From contig NZ_SMFQ01000002.1 in assembly GCF_004339015.1 (NCBI RefSeq), positions 1,055,351 to 1,119,350 on the forward strand: a stretch of DNA of 64,000 nt, in the 5' to 3' direction. Made by a program: the position numbers and the translations under genes. Origin of the DNA: Cocleimonas flava (GTDB taxonomy: Bacteria; Pseudomonadota; Gammaproteobacteria; Thiotrichales; Thiotrichaceae). Under the pieces are notes generated by a model, which saw only the letters and a program-made list of their open reading frames with translations, did not search any database and had not been told where the DNA came from. This document shows, piece by piece, positions 8,295 to 52,205 of the stretch (position 1 is the stretch's first letter; each line of letters starts with the position of its first letter).

Positions 8295-8332
8295 AGTTTT
8301 ATCGTTATCTAAGACTCTGATTAATTCAAAAC

Positions 8333-8388
8333 ACACCCCCCTACTTTGAAGGGCTTTTTATAAAAAGTCCCTCAAAGTAGGGGGGTGT
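8333..8388. repeat. G6 interspersed element, inverted pair (copies 2L/2R)
   Basis: Two complete copies face each other with no spacer: the C-strand arm 8334-8360 and G-strand arm 8361-8387 meet at a TATA centre. Both cores are the perfect AAGTAGGGGGGTG. The arms differ only around the AAGGGC/AGTCCC region. The RNA would fold into a long hairpin of about 27 bp, 39 bases after the aroC stop, so it may also stop transcription before hppA. The rest of the 267-base gap shows nothing else clear. Confidence 0.9.
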
Positions 8389-8561
8389 ATCTCTTATTTT
8401 TCCAACTTATTTCCTATTCAGTACAGCAGTGAATTTCTTATTATTAAGGAATTTATGTGTTTGTAATCAGCAAAAAAGCACTTTTCAAACTAAGATATAA
8501 CTTATCCATCTATTAATTTTTGTTATTTCACTGTGTGTCATTGCTGAAAATAGGAGGCAAA

Positions 8562-17631: not shown

Positions 17632-17701
17632 CACCCCCCTACTTTGAATGATATTACGTTTTTGTTTTTTTAAAAACGTAAATAGAATTTATGCAGAGCT
17701 A
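17632..17701 (-). repeat. Long-form interspersed element A (hairpin plus G6 core)
   Basis: A 70-bp element. The core complement CACCCCCCTACTT is 17632-17644; then comes a hairpin with 10-bp arms TTACGTTTTT (17654-17663) and AAAAACGTAA (17672-17681), then GAATTTATGC (17685-17694). A near-identical copy lies in opposite orientation at 31988-32056 and a diverged one at 47937-47998. It sits in the 243-base gap between two minus-strand genes. Confidence 0.9.
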
Positions 17702-17772: not shown

Positions 17773-19809
17773 TTAAATGTCTTTCATCAAACGCAATGCA
17801 TCGTAAATTGCTGCGTGCGTATTACGTGCAGATACCGCATCACCAATTCTAAATAATTGAAACGATCCTTCAGGGTTCTCTTTGAAATCCTGCTGTTTAC
17901 CTTCGATCAACGCATCATAATTAACAGCACCAAGATTGGAAGAAAGAGGCTTGAGATCAAAATACAAATCTTCCATCGGCAGTGTTCCATGATTTATGAT
18001 CACTTGGTCGTAGAATTTATCTTCTCTAAGGTCGCTATAATCGGTGCCAATAATGGCTTTTAGTTGATCCCCTTCCTGCATAACATCCATCAGTCTTCGG
18101 GTAACGGTGAAGGTCACGTCTTTATCTTGAAGGCTACGCATATAAGGCACTAGATTCATTGCCATGACTTCGGGTGCAAAACTTCTGTCAGGGGTCATGA
18201 TTTCAACTTTTGCGCCAGTCTTAGCGATAACTTCGGCAGCTTGCAAACCAGGGTGATCACCCGCGTCGTCAAAGATAAGCACATTCTTCCCTGGAGCTTC
18301 ATGCCCAGAAATAATATCCCAGCTGGATGAAACCAAATGGTTACCTGTTTCTAATACTTCAGTATCTGGCCAACCGCCTGTCGCGATGATGACTACATCG
18401 GGGTTTTCTGCATTTACCTCGTCGGCTTCCGCATAGGTATTGAATTTAAACTCGACACCTAAGTCCTTACACTGTTGCATGCGCCAGTCGATGATACCGA
18501 TCATATCCTGACGACGTTTAGATAACGCTGTGAGAAGCACTTGCCCACCCGCTTCAGCGGCCGCTTCGAGAACAGTCACTGTATGTCCGCGTTCGCCAGC
18601 AACGCGTGCCGCTTCCAGACCTGCTGGGCCAGCGCCAATAATAACCACTTTCTTTTGCGTGGTGGCTTTGGGAATATCATGCGGCATGGTTAGCTCACGA
18701 CCCGTCGCCGCGTTATGCATACACAATGCATCACCTGCCTGATAGATGCGGTCTAGGCAGTAATTAGCGCCAACACAGGGGCGAATATCGTGTTCGCGTC
18801 CCTGCGTAATCTTACGCACAATATGCGGATCAGCGATATGAGCGCGTGTCATGCCTACCATATCTAACAGACTTTCCGATATAGCATGTCGGGCTGTTGC
18901 AATATCGGGAATTTTCGCAGCGTGAAACGTTGGCATGCCTGTTTCTTTTCTGACTTGCCCTGCAAAATCTAAATGCGGTGAACTAGGCATCCCCTGAATC
19001 GGAATGAGATCGGTCAAGCCAGCATCATGGTTGATACGTCCACGCACTACATTGAGAAAATCCACCATGCCACTGTCACGGAATAGTTTAGATATTTCAA
19101 TGCCATCTTCGGGTGTTAAGCCTTGTTTGTGAACTTCATCAGCGGTGTAACGCATACCGACTAAAAAGTCTGGTCCCACGCGCTCACGGATTGCTTCCAG
19201 CACTTCCATGGTAAAGCGAACCCGATTGTTTAAATCACCACCATAAGGTGCGTCCAAAGAGTTAGTAATCGGGGACCAGAACTGATCCATCAAGTGTCCA
19301 TAAGCTTGCAGTTCGATGCCATCCATACCACCCGCTTTCATGCGTTCTGCGGCATCTGCGTAATCTTTAATCAGGCGCGTAATATCCCAACCTTCAATTC
19401 TTTTGGGAAAGGCTCTATGTGATGGTTCGCGGCGGTGTGATGATGATATCGCTGGCAACCAGTCACCTTTGCCCCAACCGGTGCGACGTCCTAAATGGGT
19501 TAACTGAATCATTACTGCACAATCGTGTTCATGGCAGGCATCTGTTAGTTGTTGAATCCAAGGTACGACTTCATCTTTATACGCCAGAATATTATTAAAC
19601 ACCGGCGGGCTGTCTTTGGATACTGCAGCCGATCCCGCTGTCATGGTTAATGCAACACCAGCTTTGGCGCGCTCAGCATGATAGGCCGCATAACGTTCTT
19701 TGGGCATGCCATCTTCAGGATAAGCAGGCTCATGGCTGGTAATCATGATGCGATTTTTTAAGGTTAAATGTTTTAACTGATAAGGCTGTAAAAGTGGATC
19801 GTTAGTCAA
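17773..19809 (-). CDS. DgcA/StcD-type NADH:flavin oxidoreductase (N-methyl demethylase family)
   Basis: A 678-residue flavoprotein with an N-terminal FMN-binding TIM barrel (about 1-345) and C-terminal FAD/NAD(P) Rossmann domains (about 385-678; KKVVIIGAGPAGLEAARVAGERGHTVTVLE). This layout is shared by trimethylamine dehydrogenase, 2,4-dienoyl-CoA reductase, dimethylglycine protein A and stachydrine demethylases. The cluster loop reads C-VG-A-NY-C-LDRIYQAGDAL-C: the second of four usual 4Fe-4S cysteines is Ala, as I recall for the StcD/DgcA branch. RIEGWDITRLIKDYADAAERMKAGGMDGIELQAYGHLMDQF supports that branch. A LysR gene diverges from it. Substrate is probably an N-methylated amino acid or betaine, inferred from family only. 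Confidence 0.82.
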   Translation of the reverse strand: MTNDPLLQPYQLKHLTLKNRIMITSHEPAYPEDGMPKERYAAYHAERAKAGVALTMTAGSAAVSKDSPPVFNNILAYKDEVVPWIQQLTDACHEHDCAVMIQLTHLGRRTGWGKGDWLPAISSSHRREPSHRAFPKRIEGWDITRLIKDYADAAERMKAGGMDGIELQAYGHLMDQFWSPITNSLDAPYGGDLNNRVRFTMEVLEAIRERVGPDFLVGMRYTADEVHKQGLTPEDGIEISKLFRDSGMVDFLNVVRGRINHDAGLTDLIPIQGMPSSPHLDFAGQVRKETGMPTFHAAKIPDIATARHAISESLLDMVGMTRAHIADPHIVRKITQGREHDIRPCVGANYCLDRIYQAGDALCMHNAATGRELTMPHDIPKATTQKKVVIIGAGPAGLEAARVAGERGHTVTVLEAAAEAGGQVLLTALSKRRQDMIGIIDWRMQQCKDLGVEFKFNTYAEADEVNAENPDVVIIATGGWPDTEVLETGNHLVSSSWDIISGHEAPGKNVLIFDDAGDHPGLQAAEVIAKTGAKVEIMTPDRSFAPEVMAMNLVPYMRSLQDKDVTFTVTRRLMDVMQEGDQLKAIIGTDYSDLREDKFYDQVIINHGTLPMEDLYFDLKPLSSNLGAVNYDALIEGKQQDFKENPEGSFQLFRIGDAVSARNTHAAIYDALRLMKDI

Positions 19810-19849: not shown

Positions 19850-19876
19850 AAAAAATGGCCTAAAAGTAGGGGGGTG
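19850..19876 (+). repeat. G6 interspersed element, copy 5 (divergent gap)
   Basis: A-tract 19850-19855, TGGCCTA, core AAGTAGGGGGGTG at 19864-19876 (perfect). It lies 41 bases before the start of the minus-strand flavoprotein gene and about 110 bases before the LysR start, inside the shared promoter region, so it may affect regulation. Confidence 0.85.
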
Positions 19877-19988
19877 TGTTTTGGTTTCTTCATTAGTTAA
19901 AGTCATGTCAAAAATTTCTACTAGAATAGTGAGATGAATATACCAGCTACTAATATGATGGAGAACGTCTCTCGTTTTCATAAATGAC

Positions 19989-23263: not shown

Positions 23264-25681
23264 ATGTGGAATATGTACAAAAAACAAAAATTATTGGGCT
23301 TCATTTTAAGCAGGCAATGGCGCGACACTGCGGATGGAATCAACCTAAGTTTTTGGGTGAGTACTGAACAGGGCCCTGTACATATCTTGATAGATAGACA
23401 GCAAGCCGTTTGTTTTGTTCGACGTTCTAATGAGTTAAAAGTTGATGCTTCGGTTCAACGCAAACCACTTGAGTTGAGAACTTTCGATCACGAAGCGGTA
23501 GATGGTCTATATTTCCCGCAGCAACGCCAGCTGAATACATTGCGTGAGCATCTCGCTTACAATAAGCAGCAATTACTAGAGTCTGAAATTAAACCCACCG
23601 AACGCTATCTGATGGAGCGCTTTATCACCGCTTCTGTTGAAATTAGTGGTGACGCGATTCAGCGCGAAGGGTATCTCGAATTCATAAACCCAGTGATGAA
23701 ACCCGCAGAATATGAGCCTGAATTCAACGTGGTTTCACTGGATATCGAAACAGAAGACCTCAGAGGAAAACTGTATTCCATTGCCGTAACGAGCAACGAT
23801 GTTGAAGTAGTCTTTATGAATAAAGACGAGCCAGAAAGGCACAAGGGTAATGGAAATATTCACTGGTGTTACAGCGAAAGAGATGTGCTGCAACAATTTT
23901 TCCAATGGATGAAACAGCACGACCCTGATGTCATCATCGGCTGGAATGTTGTGGCTTTTGATCTGGATTTTCTGCAATGGAAATGTAAGCAATTGCACTT
24001 GCCATTTGATATTGGCAGAGGGAATAAAAGAGACAGCAAAAATGCTGGCGGAGCATCGAGCTATCAAAATTCAGCCATACTCACGCCACAAGTCAGCGGC
24101 CAACTGTACATTGCCCGAATCCCCGGTAGAGTTGTCCTAGATGGAATCACCTGTTTACGAGGTGCATTTTATTCGTTTGAAAGCTTTGCTCTGGATCATG
24201 TCGCCGAACAGCTATTGGGTCGTAAAAAGCTGATTAGTGAAGATAAAAATAACGCTCAAAGTGGGGGGGTGCCATTAGATAAATTAAACGAGATACGTCG
24301 TCAATATCAAGAAGACCCCGTCGCTTTGGCTGAATACAATCTGGAAGATTGCCGATTAGTTGCCGATATTTTTGAGAAAACTGACATGCTGAGCTTTTCC
24401 ATCCAGCGCGCAAAAATGACCGGACTAGCGATCGACCGACAGGGAGGTTCGACGGCGGCGTTCGATAATCTCTATTTACCGAGATTACACCGACAAGGCT
24501 ATGTGGCACCAGATATCGGGAGCCAACTTAATACCAAGACTAGTCCCGGTGGCTATGTGATGGATTCATTGCCGGGTTTGTATGAGAACGTGCTGGTGCT
24601 GGATTTTAAAAGCCTGTACCCCAGTATTATCAGAACCTTCAAGATAGATCCGATGGGACTCGCTGAAGGGCTTTCTCAACATCACTTAGATGACACTATC
24701 CCCGGTTTTTTAGAGGCAGAATTCTCTCGCGAAAAACACATATTGCCGGATATTGTTACCCGACTTTGGCAGCAACGTGACGAGGCAAAAAAAGAAAATA
24801 ATAAGCCCTTATCCTATGCGATTAAAATCATCATGAATTCCTTTTACGGTGTTCTTGGCTCATCTGGCTGCCGTTTTTTTAATCCACAACTCGCCAGTAG
24901 TATCACCATGCGAGGTCATGAAATTATTCAAACCAGCAAAGAGCTCATTGAGCAGCAAGGCTATTCTGTCATTTATGGGGATACCGATTCCGTCTTTGTA
25001 TTACTGGGTGAAGGGAAAGAGAGGAGTGAATGCCAGAGTATCGGAGAGCAATTACAAACAATCTTGAATGTCTGGTGGAAACAGCATTTGCTGGATGAGT
25101 TTGACATCGAGTCTAATTTGGAAATTGAATTCGAAACACATTACTTACGCTTCTTAATGCCCACTATTCGAGGTGCTGAAACGGGCAGTAAAAAACGCTA
25201 CGCCGGAATGATTCAAACTGGAGCGGATGAAAATTCAGAGAAGTTAATGGTCTTTAAAGGCTTAGAAACAGTGCGTACAGACTGGACGCCTTTGGCACGA
25301 GAATTTCAACAGGAACTATATAAACGCATCTTCAATAATCAGCCCTATGAAGAGTATATTTCAGAAACACACGATGCTTTGATTAATGGTGAATTAGATC
25401 ATAAATTAACTTATACCAAGCGTTTGCGCAGACCACTGGAAAGTTATACGAGTACTCAGCCACCACAGGTTAAAGCGGCGCGAAAAATGAAAAACCCGGG
25501 TAGAAAAATCCAATATGTCATCACTTTGAACGGCCCAGAACCGATCGAAAGTTTAGATTCTATTCCGGATTATCAACACTATGTGGATAAACAATTGGCG
25601 CCTGTAGCAGATAGTATTTTGTATTTTTTAGGTACAACATTCGAAAAAATCACAGCCCGCCAGCTTGACGTATTTGGTTAA
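23264..25681 (+). CDS. polB: DNA polymerase II (family B)
   Basis: An 805-residue repair polymerase with 3'-5' proofreading, used in SOS and replication restart (E. coli enzyme 783). Exonuclease motifs: SLDIETEDL (Asp near residue 160), NVVAFDLDFLQ (about 228-238) and EYNLEDCRLV (about 356). Polymerase motifs: A, DFKSLYPSI (about 447); B, KIIMNSFYGVLG; C, YGDTDSVFV (about 571-579). All catalytic acidic residues are present. Near residues 329-337 the coding sequence contains a near-perfect copy of the interspersed G-rich element (NAQSGGVPL). The start at 23264 has no strong ribosome-binding site; ATG at 23273 is an alternative. Divergent from the secreted unknown. Confidence 0.97.
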   Translation: MWNMYKKQKLLGFILSRQWRDTADGINLSFWVSTEQGPVHILIDRQQAVCFVRRSNELKVDASVQRKPLELRTFDHEAVDGLYFPQQRQLNTLREHLAYNKQQLLESEIKPTERYLMERFITASVEISGDAIQREGYLEFINPVMKPAEYEPEFNVVSLDIETEDLRGKLYSIAVTSNDVEVVFMNKDEPERHKGNGNIHWCYSERDVLQQFFQWMKQHDPDVIIGWNVVAFDLDFLQWKCKQLHLPFDIGRGNKRDSKNAGGASSYQNSAILTPQVSGQLYIARIPGRVVLDGITCLRGAFYSFESFALDHVAEQLLGRKKLISEDKNNAQSGGVPLDKLNEIRRQYQEDPVALAEYNLEDCRLVADIFEKTDMLSFSIQRAKMTGLAIDRQGGSTAAFDNLYLPRLHRQGYVAPDIGSQLNTKTSPGGYVMDSLPGLYENVLVLDFKSLYPSIIRTFKIDPMGLAEGLSQHHLDDTIPGFLEAEFSREKHILPDIVTRLWQQRDEAKKENNKPLSYAIKIIMNSFYGVLGSSGCRFFNPQLASSITMRGHEIIQTSKELIEQQGYSVIYGDTDSVFVLLGEGKERSECQSIGEQLQTILNVWWKQHLLDEFDIESNLEIEFETHYLRFLMPTIRGAETGSKKRYAGMIQTGADENSEKLMVFKGLETVRTDWTPLAREFQQELYKRIFNNQPYEEYISETHDALINGELDHKLTYTKRLRRPLESYTSTQPPQVKAARKMKNPGRKIQYVITLNGPEPIESLDSIPDYQHYVDKQLAPVADSILYFLGTTFEKITARQLDVFG
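24243..24271 (+). repeat. G6 interspersed element, copy 7, inside polB
   Basis: A-tract 24245-24249, AACGCTC, core AAGTGGGGGGGTG at 24259-24271 (one mismatch to consensus) and CCATTA after it, as in intergenic copies. It is in frame (A|AGT|GGG|GGG|GTG) and codes for part of a variable loop just before exonuclease motif III. Confidence 0.7.
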
Positions 25682-25706
25682 AAAAACGCCTCTAAGTAGG
25701 GGGGTG
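25680..25706 (+). repeat. G6 interspersed element, copy 8, after polB
   Basis: A-tract 25680-25686 overlapping the polB TAA stop, CGCCTCT, perfect core at 25694-25706 then GGCTTAAA. Orientation does not fit a terminator for polB. The remaining sequence up to 26199 (about 490 bases) is AT-rich; I see no gene or strong hairpin in it. Confidence 0.87.
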
Positions 25707-26199
25707 GCTTAAATAAATTGCTGCTAATTGACCTTTTCTTATAAGCAGAAAGTCTCATTTTTGAAGTGAATTTCAGGATTATGTAAGCGATTTCATGCTT
25801 TTTTAGGTCAATTATTCGTCTAATTTATCTAATTACGATGATGTTTATCAAAGCAGTCATCATTATTTTTTTCAGTATTTCTTTTTAGATTTTACTTTGT
25901 TTATTTCCAAAAAATTACCCTATACCCCGCGTTATTGCTGACTCTAGTCTTAGGTGAACACACTCGGAGGCCGCTATCTAGCTCACTTTTTTCCACTGGC
26001 ACTATAAGTTTCTTGCAACTGGCTTCAAGTAAACTCTGAATCTTGTCTATAGTTATTACTAGGACACAAATTTATTACTAAAATATTAAGGAAATGCCTC
26101 TCTGGTCCATTTGGTAAAGAAAATTGGTTCTACTGCTCAGTGTTTTCAAGCTTTAGAATTTTTGTTTCTAAAAACAACGATGCGAGAGAGAGGATGATG

Positions 26200-31853: not shown

Positions 31854-31880
31854 AAAAAAATGCCTATAAGTAGGGGGGTG
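31854..31880 (+). repeat. G6 interspersed element, copy 9
   Basis: A-tract 31854-31860, TGCCTAT, perfect core 31868-31880, then ACTTAAAA. It is one of two elements in the 568-base convergent gap between the Usp gene and the taurine-type permease gene; the rest of that gap holds two hairpins (31703-31736 and 32101-32134) and otherwise AT-rich DNA. Confidence 0.87.
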
Positions 31881-31987
31881 ACTTAAAATAAATTAGCTTA
31901 CAACACACATCTATGGGTCCAGAGCCGATTGAAGTAAGGATTTTATTCTAGGCATAACAACATGATCTGTCCGATTAAAAATATGGC

Positions 31988-32056
31988 TAGCTCTGCATAA
32001 ATTCTATTTACGTTTTTAAAAAACAAAAACGTAATATCATTCAAAGTGGGGAGGTG
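31988..32056 (+). repeat. Long-form interspersed element B (hairpin plus G-rich core)
   Basis: A 69-bp inverted copy of element A at 17632-17701, identical over about 55 bases except one A in a run. Order: TAGCTCTGCATAAATTC, hairpin arms 32008-32017 and 32025-32034 (TTACGTTTTT / AAAAACGTAA), TATCATTC, then variant core AAGTGGGGAGGTG at 32044-32056. Confidence 0.9.
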
Positions 32057-32100
32057 GCTTTTAGTAAATCACCCAGATTCAGTCACAGAATATGTAGACA

Positions 32101-47936: not shown

Positions 47937-47998
47937 GCATAAATTCGTTCTAACGTTTTTAAAACACAAAACGAGAACTCATTTAAGTAGGAGGGGTG
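47937..47998 (+). repeat. Long-form interspersed element C (diverged hairpin plus G-rich core)
   Basis: Shares GCATAAATTC (47937-47946), ACGTTTTTAAAA and the end of elements A and B but has changed stem arms: GTTCT (47947-47951) pairs with AGAAC (47974-47978), CGTTTT with AAAACG. Core AAGTAGGAGGGGTG at 47985-47998. Lies in the 221-base convergent gap between lldD and the second dehydrogenase gene. Confidence 0.8.
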
Positions 47999-50668: not shown

Positions 50669-51550
50669 ATGAAAAGGCTACTCACAAATTCTATACAACT
50701 CAACTGGCTAAGAACATTTTCTGTTGCGGGTGAGCATTTAAGCTTTACCTTGGCAGCTGAAGATCTGGCAATGAGCCAATCAGCTGTGAGTCAACAAATC
50801 CAGCTACTAGAACATCACTTGAATCAAAAACTGTTCTATCGGGCTAACAGAAGTATACGTCTCACAGACGCAGGACGGGCATTTTTACCCCTGGTGGAAA
50901 GTACCTTGAAACAGCTCAACCAGGGCGCGGCTAAAATATTTTCTCCATCAGATGAAGCGGTTGTTGAGTTTGGTGTGAATACAACCTTCGCCGAGTTATG
51001 GCTGGCACCTCGATTGCAACAGTTTAATTTGATTCATCCGCATATATCGATTCGTCAACATGGCACTAACTGGGCTTCTGATTACCCAATATCAACTTCA
51101 GAATTAGAAATCCGTTATGGCAAGGGTGATTGGGATGGCTTTGAATCTATCCCGCTGATTTCACAAAAGATAAGGCCTTATTGCAGCCCTGAAAATGCAA
51201 AACAATTGCGTGAGCTCGATGATGTTAATAAGCTGACATTGCTCGATGTTTTGGGCGTGCCTAAAGGCTGGAATAGCTGGTTAGAAATGACTGAGTTGAA
51301 TGATAGACCCAGACAACCGATGCAATATATGGATAGCTATGTGATGGCCGCTTCACTCGCAGCAAATGGTATGGGAATCTGTTTGATGTATGACGATTTC
51401 ATGCAGGAAGGCTTTTTAGCGAAGCAATTGGTCGCCCCATTTTTTGAAAGTCTGGATACTGAAAGCGGCTATTTTGTTTGTTATAAAAGTGAAAAGAACT
51501 TATCGGAAGCAACTCGATTGTTTAAGGATTGGTTGCTGAGTTACACCTGA
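50669..51550 (+). CDS. LysR-family regulator
   Basis: A 293-residue regulator: LNWLRTFSVAGEHLSFTLAAEDLAMSQSAVSQQIQLLEHHLNQKLFYR is the DNA-binding domain; sensor domain VVEFGVNTTFAELWLAPRLQQFNLIHPHISIRQH. Divergent from the 819-residue dehydrogenase gene, so probably its regulator. Convergent with the DUF3501 gene. Similar in plan to the LysR gene at 45713, as the two dehydrogenases are to each other. Confidence 0.92.
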   Translation: MKRLLTNSIQLNWLRTFSVAGEHLSFTLAAEDLAMSQSAVSQQIQLLEHHLNQKLFYRANRSIRLTDAGRAFLPLVESTLKQLNQGAAKIFSPSDEAVVEFGVNTTFAELWLAPRLQQFNLIHPHISIRQHGTNWASDYPISTSELEIRYGKGDWDGFESIPLISQKIRPYCSPENAKQLRELDDVNKLTLLDVLGVPKGWNSWLEMTELNDRPRQPMQYMDSYVMAASLAANGMGICLMYDDFMQEGFLAKQLVAPFFESLDTESGYFVCYKSEKNLSEATRLFKDWLLSYT

Positions 51551-51560
51551 GACTGTTAAT

Positions 51561-51594
51561 AGTAGGGGGCTATTTATAAGGCACCCCCACACTT
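51561..51594. repeat. Degenerate inverted pair of the interspersed element
   Basis: AGTAGGGGGC (51561-51570) faces CACCCCCACACTT (51582-51594) across 11 bases; GGGGG and CCCCC can pair. It lies between convergent genes 10 bases after the LysR stop, so it could end both transcripts. The right copy continues TTAGGCACTTTTT as a full element. Confidence 0.7.
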
Positions 51595-51617
51595 TTAGGC
51601 ACTTTTTCTATTTTTAT

Positions 51618-52205
51618 CTAAGCCAGATCATTTACCATCGCCTGACGATAATTCTCAGGAACTGGCGTTACCGCATGCGTGTAGTTTTCGTGATCTATAC
51701 CGACATTAATCGCTGCGCCATCTTTAACCGCAGCAATCATCTCTGGGGATAATTCAAAACGCATGAAGTGCACCGCAGAGGTTTTGTCTTCGGTTTCGCG
51801 CTCTAAGTCTTCATTGCTAATCGCGAATACTTTGTCGAATCCTTCAACCTGTACCCAGGTTTTACGATCAATGCCGATTAATTGTGACAGTGCTTTAACT
51901 CTTTCGGCTACATCGATGTATTCGATCATCATCGTTGCTTTCCAATTAGTACCAGTAGGTAGCATGGCGTTATAGACTTCTAATTCTTCATTGATACCAG
52001 CGGCATCAAATACTTTTTCAGCACGTAGAATTTCCTGAATTTGATATTTTAAGGTAGTGGCATCTTCAAAATACAGAGTAACATTTGGACCAACTGGAAG
52101 GTTGCGGCTCTTTTTATGCAGCATGGTTGCCGCTCGAATTTCTGGTCGCTGTTCATGATACTGCTCTAAAGAAAGTAAGTCATCTCTGGTTAGTTTTTGT
52201 GTCAT
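51618..52205 (-). CDS. DUF3501 family protein
   Basis: A 195-residue protein of the DUF3501 family: LTRDDLLSLEQYHEQRPEIRAATMLHKKSRNLPVGPNVTLYFEDATTLKYQIQEILRAEKVF and an acidic middle region. The family occurs almost always next to a rubrerythrin and an Fe-S oxidoreductase, as here, but has no settled function. It follows the Fe-S gene by 33 bases on the same strand. Confidence 0.85.
   Translation of the reverse strand: MTQKLTRDDLLSLEQYHEQRPEIRAATMLHKKSRNLPVGPNVTLYFEDATTLKYQIQEILRAEKVFDAAGINEELEVYNAMLPTGTNWKATMMIEYIDVAERVKALSQLIGIDRKTWVQVEGFDKVFAISNEDLERETEDKTSAVHFMRFELSPEMIAAVKDGAAINVGIDHENYTHAVTPVPENYRQAMVNDLA

Follow-up and report, generated by a model that had tools for sequence, protein, structure and literature searches.

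A hairpin cassette inserted at one position of a short intergenic repeat in Cocleimonas

Several described systems of small intergenic sequences come close to the elements analyzed here. REP, BIME and REPIN repeats with RAYT, in the parts of PMC6006769 and PMC3733652 on which we draw, comprise hundreds of short intergenic units, some as inverted pairs, together with hairpins; their guides follow a GT[AG]G rule (PMC6006769), and GTAG repeats of the REP type are treated in PMC3733652. IS200/IS605 elements, including IS608, are described as entering the lagging-strand template next to a fixed tetranucleotide (PMC6006769). Insertion sequences that target REP (Tobes and Pareja 2006, PMC1525189) are mobile sequences entering an abundant intergenic repeat. 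Neisserial intergenic mosaic elements (RS modules and dRS3, the latter an inverted repeat ATTCCC(N)8GGGAAT; PMC9778887) are built of short modules with fixed short joints. MITEs, including those of Thiomargarita, another large sulfur bacterium (PMC4853749), are short, non-coding, non-autonomous and hairpin-forming, and in sponge mitochondria small hairpins repeatedly invade intergenic DNA (PMC2800124).

We analyzed a window, that is, the whole stretch of 64,000 nucleotides (G000:C1:1055351-1119350), from the 4.49-Mb genome G000, a Cocleimonas (Thiotrichaceae). In the reading that we favour, its long elements consist of a short unit, S, and a ~54-bp hairpin cassette, H1, which is probably a non-autonomous mobile single-strand hairpin. 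Many of the traits listed above recur here, hundreds of short intergenic units with GT[AG]G, some of them in inverted pairs, among them, but none of the systems, as far as the cited accounts present them, matches in full. Unlike in REP/RAYT, the GT[AG]G of S is not at the 5' foot of a hairpin, a single S is unfolded, G000 is without Y1 and the hairpin is a separate cassette. H1, a geneless hairpin of 54 bp, is far smaller than an insertion sequence; its joints, TCATTC|CGCAAAGCATAARTTC, and its non-palindromic host unit differ from the Neisserial modules, and the likeness to these does not extend to a demonstrated sequence relation. Unlike MITEs, H1 has neither terminal inverted repeats nor a target duplication, and the sponge elements sit in organelle genomes, with no fixed host unit mentioned in the portion of PMC2800124 used here. 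A search of one open library returned nothing like H1, and the Cocleimonas genome papers among the matches listed did not have repeats as their subject. In its way of working H1 would come closest to the single-strand hairpins of the REP or IS200/IS605 type, a likeness that falls short of membership.

A preliminary description of the window had placed three long elements at 17632-17701, 31988-32056 and 47937-47998, and all three were found there. The element at 31988-32056 (forward strand) and that at 17632-17701 (reverse strand) lie in opposite orientation with 14.3 kb between them and have in common TAGCTCTGCATAAATTC, the 10-bp arms TTACGTTTTT / AAAAACGTAA and the G-rich core. The third (47937-47998, forward strand) has the arms GTTCT/AGAAC and CGTTTT/AAAACG, as had been claimed. 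The left end TAGCTCTGCATAAATTC, which had been ascribed to all three, is present in the first two, and the third has only GCATAAATTC of its 17 bp. The features around these elements are as follows.

31976 to 31988, forward strand: left half of the host short unit at the flagged site (A-rich tract and GGCT); the same flank occurs in the relative G007, joined straight to ATAAGTAGGGAGGTGGCTTT.
31988 to 32042, forward strand: inserted hairpin cassette H1 (borders uncertain by 1-2 bases), missing from the orthologous G007 site; covariance model match of 97 bits.
31988 to 32004, forward strand: left end of H1, TAGCTCTGCATAAATTC, followed by the hairpin and then by the right end TCATTC at 32037 to 32042.
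32008 to 32017, forward strand: 5' hairpin arm TTACGTTTTT, from folding and covariation.
32025 to 32034, forward strand: 3' hairpin arm AAAAACGTAA, from folding and covariation.
32043 to 32060, forward strand: right half of the host short unit (AAAGTGGGGAGGTGGCTT), retaining the unusual GGGAGG of the bare G007 unit.
17646 to 17701, reverse strand: H1 cassette, also in G007; covariance model match.
17632 to 17645, reverse strand: core of the host short unit (AAAGTAGGGGGGTG) adjoining that cassette.
47937 to 47984, forward strand: divergent H1-like cassette (arms GTTCT/AGAAC, CGTTTT/AAAACG), common to G007; covariance model and fold.
47985 to 47998, forward strand: core of the host short unit of the divergent cassette (AAGTAGGAGGGGTG).
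19850 to 19880, forward strand: bare short unit, H1-filled in G007 (locus L026).
25680 to 25710, forward strand: bare short unit, filled in G007 with a second cassette type, H2.
31854 to 31884, forward strand: bare short unit close to the flagged element and kept in G007.

Folded as single-stranded DNA, the flagged element, the reverse-strand element and the divergent one reach -8.0, -7.2 and -7.6 kcal/mol (z -3.5, -3.1 and -2.7, the values being given in the order of the three elements), and 1, 3 and 4 of 200 dinucleotide shuffles, respectively, fold as well. The 17-mer of the left end has two matches in the window, both exact; with up to 3 mismatches 0.36 would be expected, and at least two matches arise in 7 of 100 shuffles, so that taken by itself the window says little for the left end. 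As the preliminary description had proposed, a covariance model was built, from 41 aligned copies, and run over the genome, which gave 47 copies in G000 at E <= 0.001 (best 150 of 5512 candidates scored). Over 57 genomes, with at most 89 candidates scored per genome and stricter filters, so that the count for G007 is a lower bound, the model found at least 89 copies in G007, 62 in G003, 47 in G000, 39 in G008, 11 in G011 and 1 in G027, and no match in the remaining 51 genomes. H1 is thus present in four of eleven genus-mates of G000, at 11 to at least 89 copies each; G027, from another genus of the family, holds one related element with diverged arms (L231 = L054). A scan of named genomes with the 17-mer gave at least 112 stretches, of which we used those with Cocleimonas or Thiotrichaceae titles (~30 of their listed loci). 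Many copies came from the uncultured Cocleimonas isolate 4-1410 (NZ_CANLZW) and a Cocleimonas MAG (CALJIH), and the matches in unrelated species look like chance matches. Locus L026 of isolate 4-1410 is 91.5% identical to the window over 6.8 kb, and G000 and G007 are 70-95% identical over the blocks compared.

The short unit is far more abundant. GTAGGGGGGTG occurs 725 times in G000 (192 + 533) and its reversed control once, so the short G6 units of the preliminary description are real. The consensus drawn from 231 exact units, in a ~1.15-Mb sample and the window, reads A6 R N GCCT N W AAGTAGGGGGGTG N C T T T, also written A6-RNGCCT-NW-AAGTRGGGGGGTG-NCTTT. With a simple purpose-made gene caller, 217 of these units were intergenic (72 of them between convergent genes), 11 lay inside called genes and 3 at an edge. 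Exact copies of the core AAGTAGGGGGGTG number 721 in G000, 777 in G007, 453 in G003, 388 in G011, 232 in G008 and 74 in G006, with 0 to 2 in six other genus-mates and no exact copy in 64 genomes of other genera. The variant core AAGTGGGGGGGTG adds 158 units in G000 and 163 in G006.

Between G000 and G007 a core-like site is kept at 28 of 29 S units, the single miss sitting in a badly aligned stretch, whereas hairpins come and go. In 22 ungapped, well-aligned pairs the core differed at 3 of 285 positions and the flanks at 122 of 769 and 157 of 909; six further pairs were dropped for gaps at the core, inclusion of the bad pair gives 12 of 298 for the core, and anchoring on exact cores in G000 somewhat lowers the core figure. 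The free positions -9 to -3 (42 of 152 different) were more variable than the flanks. Among 24 shared units in 102 kb of alignment, gaps of 15-130 bp gave no clean case of S being present in one genome and absent from the other. With its core kept between relatives and its flanks diverged, S looks like a stable, constrained feature, an intergenic motif found in some members of the genus.

S is oriented with replication. By local GC skew (50 units in weak-skew stretches and the window left out) the G strand is leading in 116 of 151 units, and between convergent genes in 36 of 50, as compared to 488:312 for the genes themselves; by chromosome arm, 164 units are leading, 52 lagging and 15 ambiguous. 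This orientation (window 2466-63530; whole G000) thus holds also between convergent genes. S was rejected as a one-way terminator, with units near gene ends on both strands (63 '++' vs 44 '--'). Nor is it KOPS, the E. coli FtsK-orienting polar motif, which we take to be GGGNAGGG and which the S consensus does not contain. In 871 kb of G000 leading strand with S masked, GGGNAGGG itself occurred 19 times leading and never lagging, which suggests that Cocleimonas uses the same polar FtsK-orienting signal. Internal base pairing in S was also rejected; the strongest mutual information is between neighbouring positions and not across the unit. Two single units that were folded had no significant stem (z -0.8 and -1.3, no better than shuffles). 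Pairs within 100 bp of each other in the sample are tail-to-tail in 15 cases and head-to-head in 5, and the latter could, by eye, form a GT[AG]G-footed hairpin. At window 8310-8400 two tail-to-tail units make a near-palindrome for which G007 has other bases on both arms; paired S units seem to covary too.

Comparison of orthologous sites gave before and after states. At the flagged site G000 reads ...ATATGGCTAGCTCTGC-hairpin-TCATTCAAAGTGGGGAGGTGGCTTTTAG... and G007 reads ...ATATGGCTATAAGTAGGGAGGTGGCTTTTAG..., with matching flanks. The G007 unit is bare and has the same private GGGAGG, which indicates that the short unit preceded the hairpin at 31988. The reverse was observed at window 19869, L144, L177 and L156, which are bare in G000 and carry an H1 of 54-55 bp in G007 (at L156 the S unit is a variant, AAAGGTGGGGGG), and at window 25699, bare in G000 and H2-filled in G007. 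Weaker filled/empty cases are L173/L074, L155/L322 and L148/L319, and the hairpin is in both genomes at 17632, 47937 and L006/L093. A comparison of 11 G007 sites gave 2 clean filled/empty cases, 1 weaker case, 2 sites filled in both and 6 that were unreadable because of diverged flanks or larger changes (one past the aligned stretch, L033, L040, L066 and two of L044). At ~74.7-79.7 kb of G007:C1 (L044, L313) ~5 kb of extra genes, one of which by eye resembles a sulfide-dehydrogenase flavoprotein, lie between two direct-oriented long forms; the G000 counterpart is one short unit at window 51543-51619. A site filled in G000 and bare in G007 was seen only once. Insertion at one position of S has thus occurred once in the lineage of G000 and several times in that of G007.

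The insertion point is between GCCT and NWAAGTRG of S. Beside the insert the bases N W are often not the ones seen in the bare unit, which leaves the right border of H1 uncertain by 1-2 bases. No target duplication was found in the filled/empty pairs, and no terminal inverted repeats; the ends of H1, AGCTCTGC... and ...TCATTC, are not inverted repeats of each other. That the hairpins were gained and not lost is inferred from how clean the bare sites are and from the surplus of S, not from a rooted tree. The preliminary description had suggested that the short units are remnants or solo ends of the larger one, and this is contradicted at the sites compared, 31988 being bare in G007 and five further sites being bare in G000 and filled in G007. 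An ancestral long form might account for the single related element with diverged arms in another genus (G027), but the bare sites hold no trace of the hairpin or of the H1 left end, S exceeds H1 by ~15:1 in G000 (725 exact cores vs 47) and G006 has S without H1. We consider it extremely improbable. In line with this order of events, G006 has 74 AAGTAGGGGGGTG and 163 AAGTGGGGGGGTG units, yet no H1 match, and many H1 without S were found in no genome searched.

The same position of S hosts several cassettes. H1 itself is laid out over ~54 bp as TAGCTYTGCATAAATTC - stem-loop - TCATTC. H2 stands alone in L008 and behind H1 in L138 and L160; tandems are H1-H1 in L061 and H1-H2 in L005, L138, L160 and L026, and all five have the junction TCATTC|CGCAAAGCATAARTTC. 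Single cassettes starting with CGCAAAGC were found in L177, L183 and L148. A third, longer hairpin element lies inside H1 (L025), inside H2 (L047, L324) and beside the S core in G006. In G006 (L308-L310) these longer elements directly adjoin the S core, and their last stems differ but pair (GCATTT/AAATGC, GCGTTT/AAACGC, CGGTT/AACCG, CGGAT/ATCCG); they are another family with covarying arms at the same S site. A decayed sequence that by eye is IS200-like (L047:393-930) sits at TTAC of an H1 arm, with its left junction shared by L058 and L104; we took it as a secondary insertion at TTAC of H1 and rejected it as the parent of H1. A wider reading, which we put forward only tentatively and hold to be rather unlikely, is that a hitherto undescribed site-specific system of Cocleimonas docks folded single-stranded DNA hairpins of several unrelated kinds at one position of a replication-oriented motif, singly or in tandem. 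It would take H1, H2 and the longer G006 elements without known transposase ends or target duplication, and would amount to hairpin capture over hundreds of chromosomal sites.

Possibly, the cassettes could spread without a dedicated enzyme, by ectopic gene conversion or template switching among the hundreds of near-identical S units, with quasi-palindrome replication errors keeping the arms complementary in the absence of selection. S supplies short homology on both sides of each insert, the two bases beside the insert are often unlike the bare unit, and no transposase candidate was found in G000 for Y1_Tnp and IS110. The shared homology, however, is just ~13 bp on one side and ~6-10 on the other, H1 and H2 are different cassettes that end at nearly the same bases, and the target retains its own core variant (GGGAGG at 31988); we regard this route as unlikely, if still worth weighing.

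Pairing of the arms was analyzed in the 41 copies (chance matches, H2 copies, the truncated L040 and L093, an ortholog of L006, having been dropped). Pairing was seen in 89.5% of 446 cells, as compared to 79.7% in shuffled alignments. Double changes affected 8 of 11 pairs (shuffled 3.5) and 33 cells (shuffled 6.6; slid controls 3 to 19), and the best slid control (+1) had 7 pairs with double changes, but just 46% of its cells paired. The preliminary description had read paired arm changes as a sign that the folded form matters, and had named as evidence against it arm changes that break pairing as often as they keep it. On this count the outcome is borderline. In fixed columns 47 cells break the pair and 37 change yet keep it; one-sided changes that keep a G-U pair number 4. 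Broken cells are as common as changed ones that still pair, and many copies are therefore decaying. The idea that the fold matters was nevertheless supported by the doubly changed pairs and by further hairpins. A model search of 100 loci gave 110 matches, 81 of which were parsed into 64 distinct hairpins, 23 already in the alignment and 41 not. A mid-arm that departs from the consensus and is perfectly complementary was found in 15 of the 64 (shuffle mean 1.4, maximum 7) and an imperfect one in 17; among the 41 hairpins outside the first alignment the number was 9 (shuffle mean 0.9, maximum 6). Each of the mid-arm types ACGT, ACAT, TCGT, ATGT, AGGT, ACCT, ACGC, AAGC and AAGT is matched by its exact complement. 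When halves are exchanged between copies, the fold becomes weaker (own -5.7, swapped -4.1, shuffled -1.0). Copies with an intact stem have only slightly fewer end mismatches (1.61 vs 2.33 in others, p 0.07). It appears that paired changes have preserved the fold in lineages that spread and that many copies decay, a pattern that would suit an element that must fold to move.

The kind of changes also bears on whether DNA or RNA folds. In the 64 hairpins 37 cells have another Watson-Crick pair, 6 have G-T, 10 A-C and 38 something else; with no wobble preference (G-T 6 vs A-C 10), this fits a DNA fold and not an RNA fold. Covarying arms and an intergenic position, often between convergent genes (13 of 29 places in G000), could also be expected of a hairpin acting in 3' untranslated RNA, for stability or termination, with selection on the transcript keeping the pairing. 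The lack of a G-U excess speaks against this, as do the absence of any Rfam match in the window at gathering scores, the variable presence of the hairpin at the same genes of relatives, and the lack of orientation to transcription. Long forms are convergent in 13, '--' in 8, '++' in 6 and divergent in 2 of the 29 places in G000, and in 40 of 51 G007 and G003 loci the numbers are 14, 10, 14 and 2, with no preference of H1 relative to genes in either set. We consider an RNA element very unlikely. Relative to replication, with strands assigned by chromosome arm from GC skew, the G strand of H1 is leading in 37 of 43 copies and, with tandems merged and 4 ambiguous, in 32 of 38 places (p 2.4e-5). 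This does not differ from S under the same rule (164:52, Fisher p 0.30), so the bias may belong to S and be inherited from it by H1.

To look for a mover, known families were searched. Y1_Tnp (PF01797) has no match in G000 (completeness given as 100), G003, G006, G008 or G011; it is present in G007 (4 matches) and six other genomes. IS110 (PF01548) matches in three of twelve genus genomes and not in G000, and with its DEDD transposase missing there we rejected an IS110/IS1111 target-specific element. A classical DDE-transposon MITE was set aside on the ends, which lack both terminal inverted repeats and a target-site duplication. G000 does encode an integron integrase (TIGR02249 at G000:C2:1275703-1276650, 442 bits, cut-off 265). 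Ends of attC type read TAACAAG ... GGCGTTA, and the array beside the integrase has attC-type repeats of 67-85 bp that are unlike H1 by eye. The integrase occurs without H1 in G001, G002, G004 and G009, and H1 occurs in G008 without an integrase match over the cut-off, so an attC identity for H1 was rejected on both the array and the distribution. The whole integron region (G000:C2:1275703-1279600; L171 15700-19600) has the integrase, at least 4 attC-like repeats and short gene cassettes, one of which contains a short S unit (L171 ~18430-18460). Among the families searched (Y1_Tnp, IS110, integron integrase) there was no candidate in G000 for the mover of H1.

As for IS200/IS605, GCC(T) stands left of the insert and there is a strand bias of 32:6, possibly inherited from S; a complement of GCCT beside the hairpin, which would serve as guide, was not seen by eye. 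S may alternatively be an orphan REP-like repeat tagged with GT[AG]G, H1 and H2 its associated hairpins, and the transposase, of the RAYT/HUH kind, since lost from most genomes. At 267 AAGT[N]GGGGGG sites in the sample N is A in 216, G in 47, T in 2 and C in 2, and the A and G sites fit the REP guide rule as PMC6006769 sets it out. Insertion next to a fixed tetranucleotide, if it is into the lagging-strand template, would recall the IS200/IS605 elements of the same account. But the GT[AG]G follows the H1 hairpin on its 3' side and does not stand at the 5' foot, neither of the two single S units that were folded had a significant stem, and G000, like the other S-rich genomes G003, G006, G008 and G011, is without Y1_Tnp, while of the seven genomes with Y1_Tnp six contain 0-2 copies of AAGTAGGGGGGTG. 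On these grounds REP/RAYT membership was rejected, and a relic of such a system is, to us, quite unlikely.

For H1 as a mobile single-strand hairpin, the steps may be pictured as follows. H1 would travel in single-stranded, folded form, enter whichever strand lies exposed as the template of lagging-strand synthesis and be joined 3' of GCCT; copies that fold would be passed on, which would keep the arms complementary in spreading lineages, and decay would come afterwards.

Taken together, our results describe H1 as one more small mobile repeat of intergenic DNA, probably non-autonomous, which docks at a fixed site and has been active since two Cocleimonas lineages parted. H1 lacks the ends of the bacterial transposons compared, and G000 lacks the two transposase families searched for, Y1_Tnp and IS110. 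Small bacterial intergenic repeats are mostly seen as finished copies, whereas here the states before and after insertion are visible at the same sites and in both directions, which makes the joints, the target and any need for folding accessible to tests. The natural guess is reversed at the sites compared: the short repeat is not debris of the long one.
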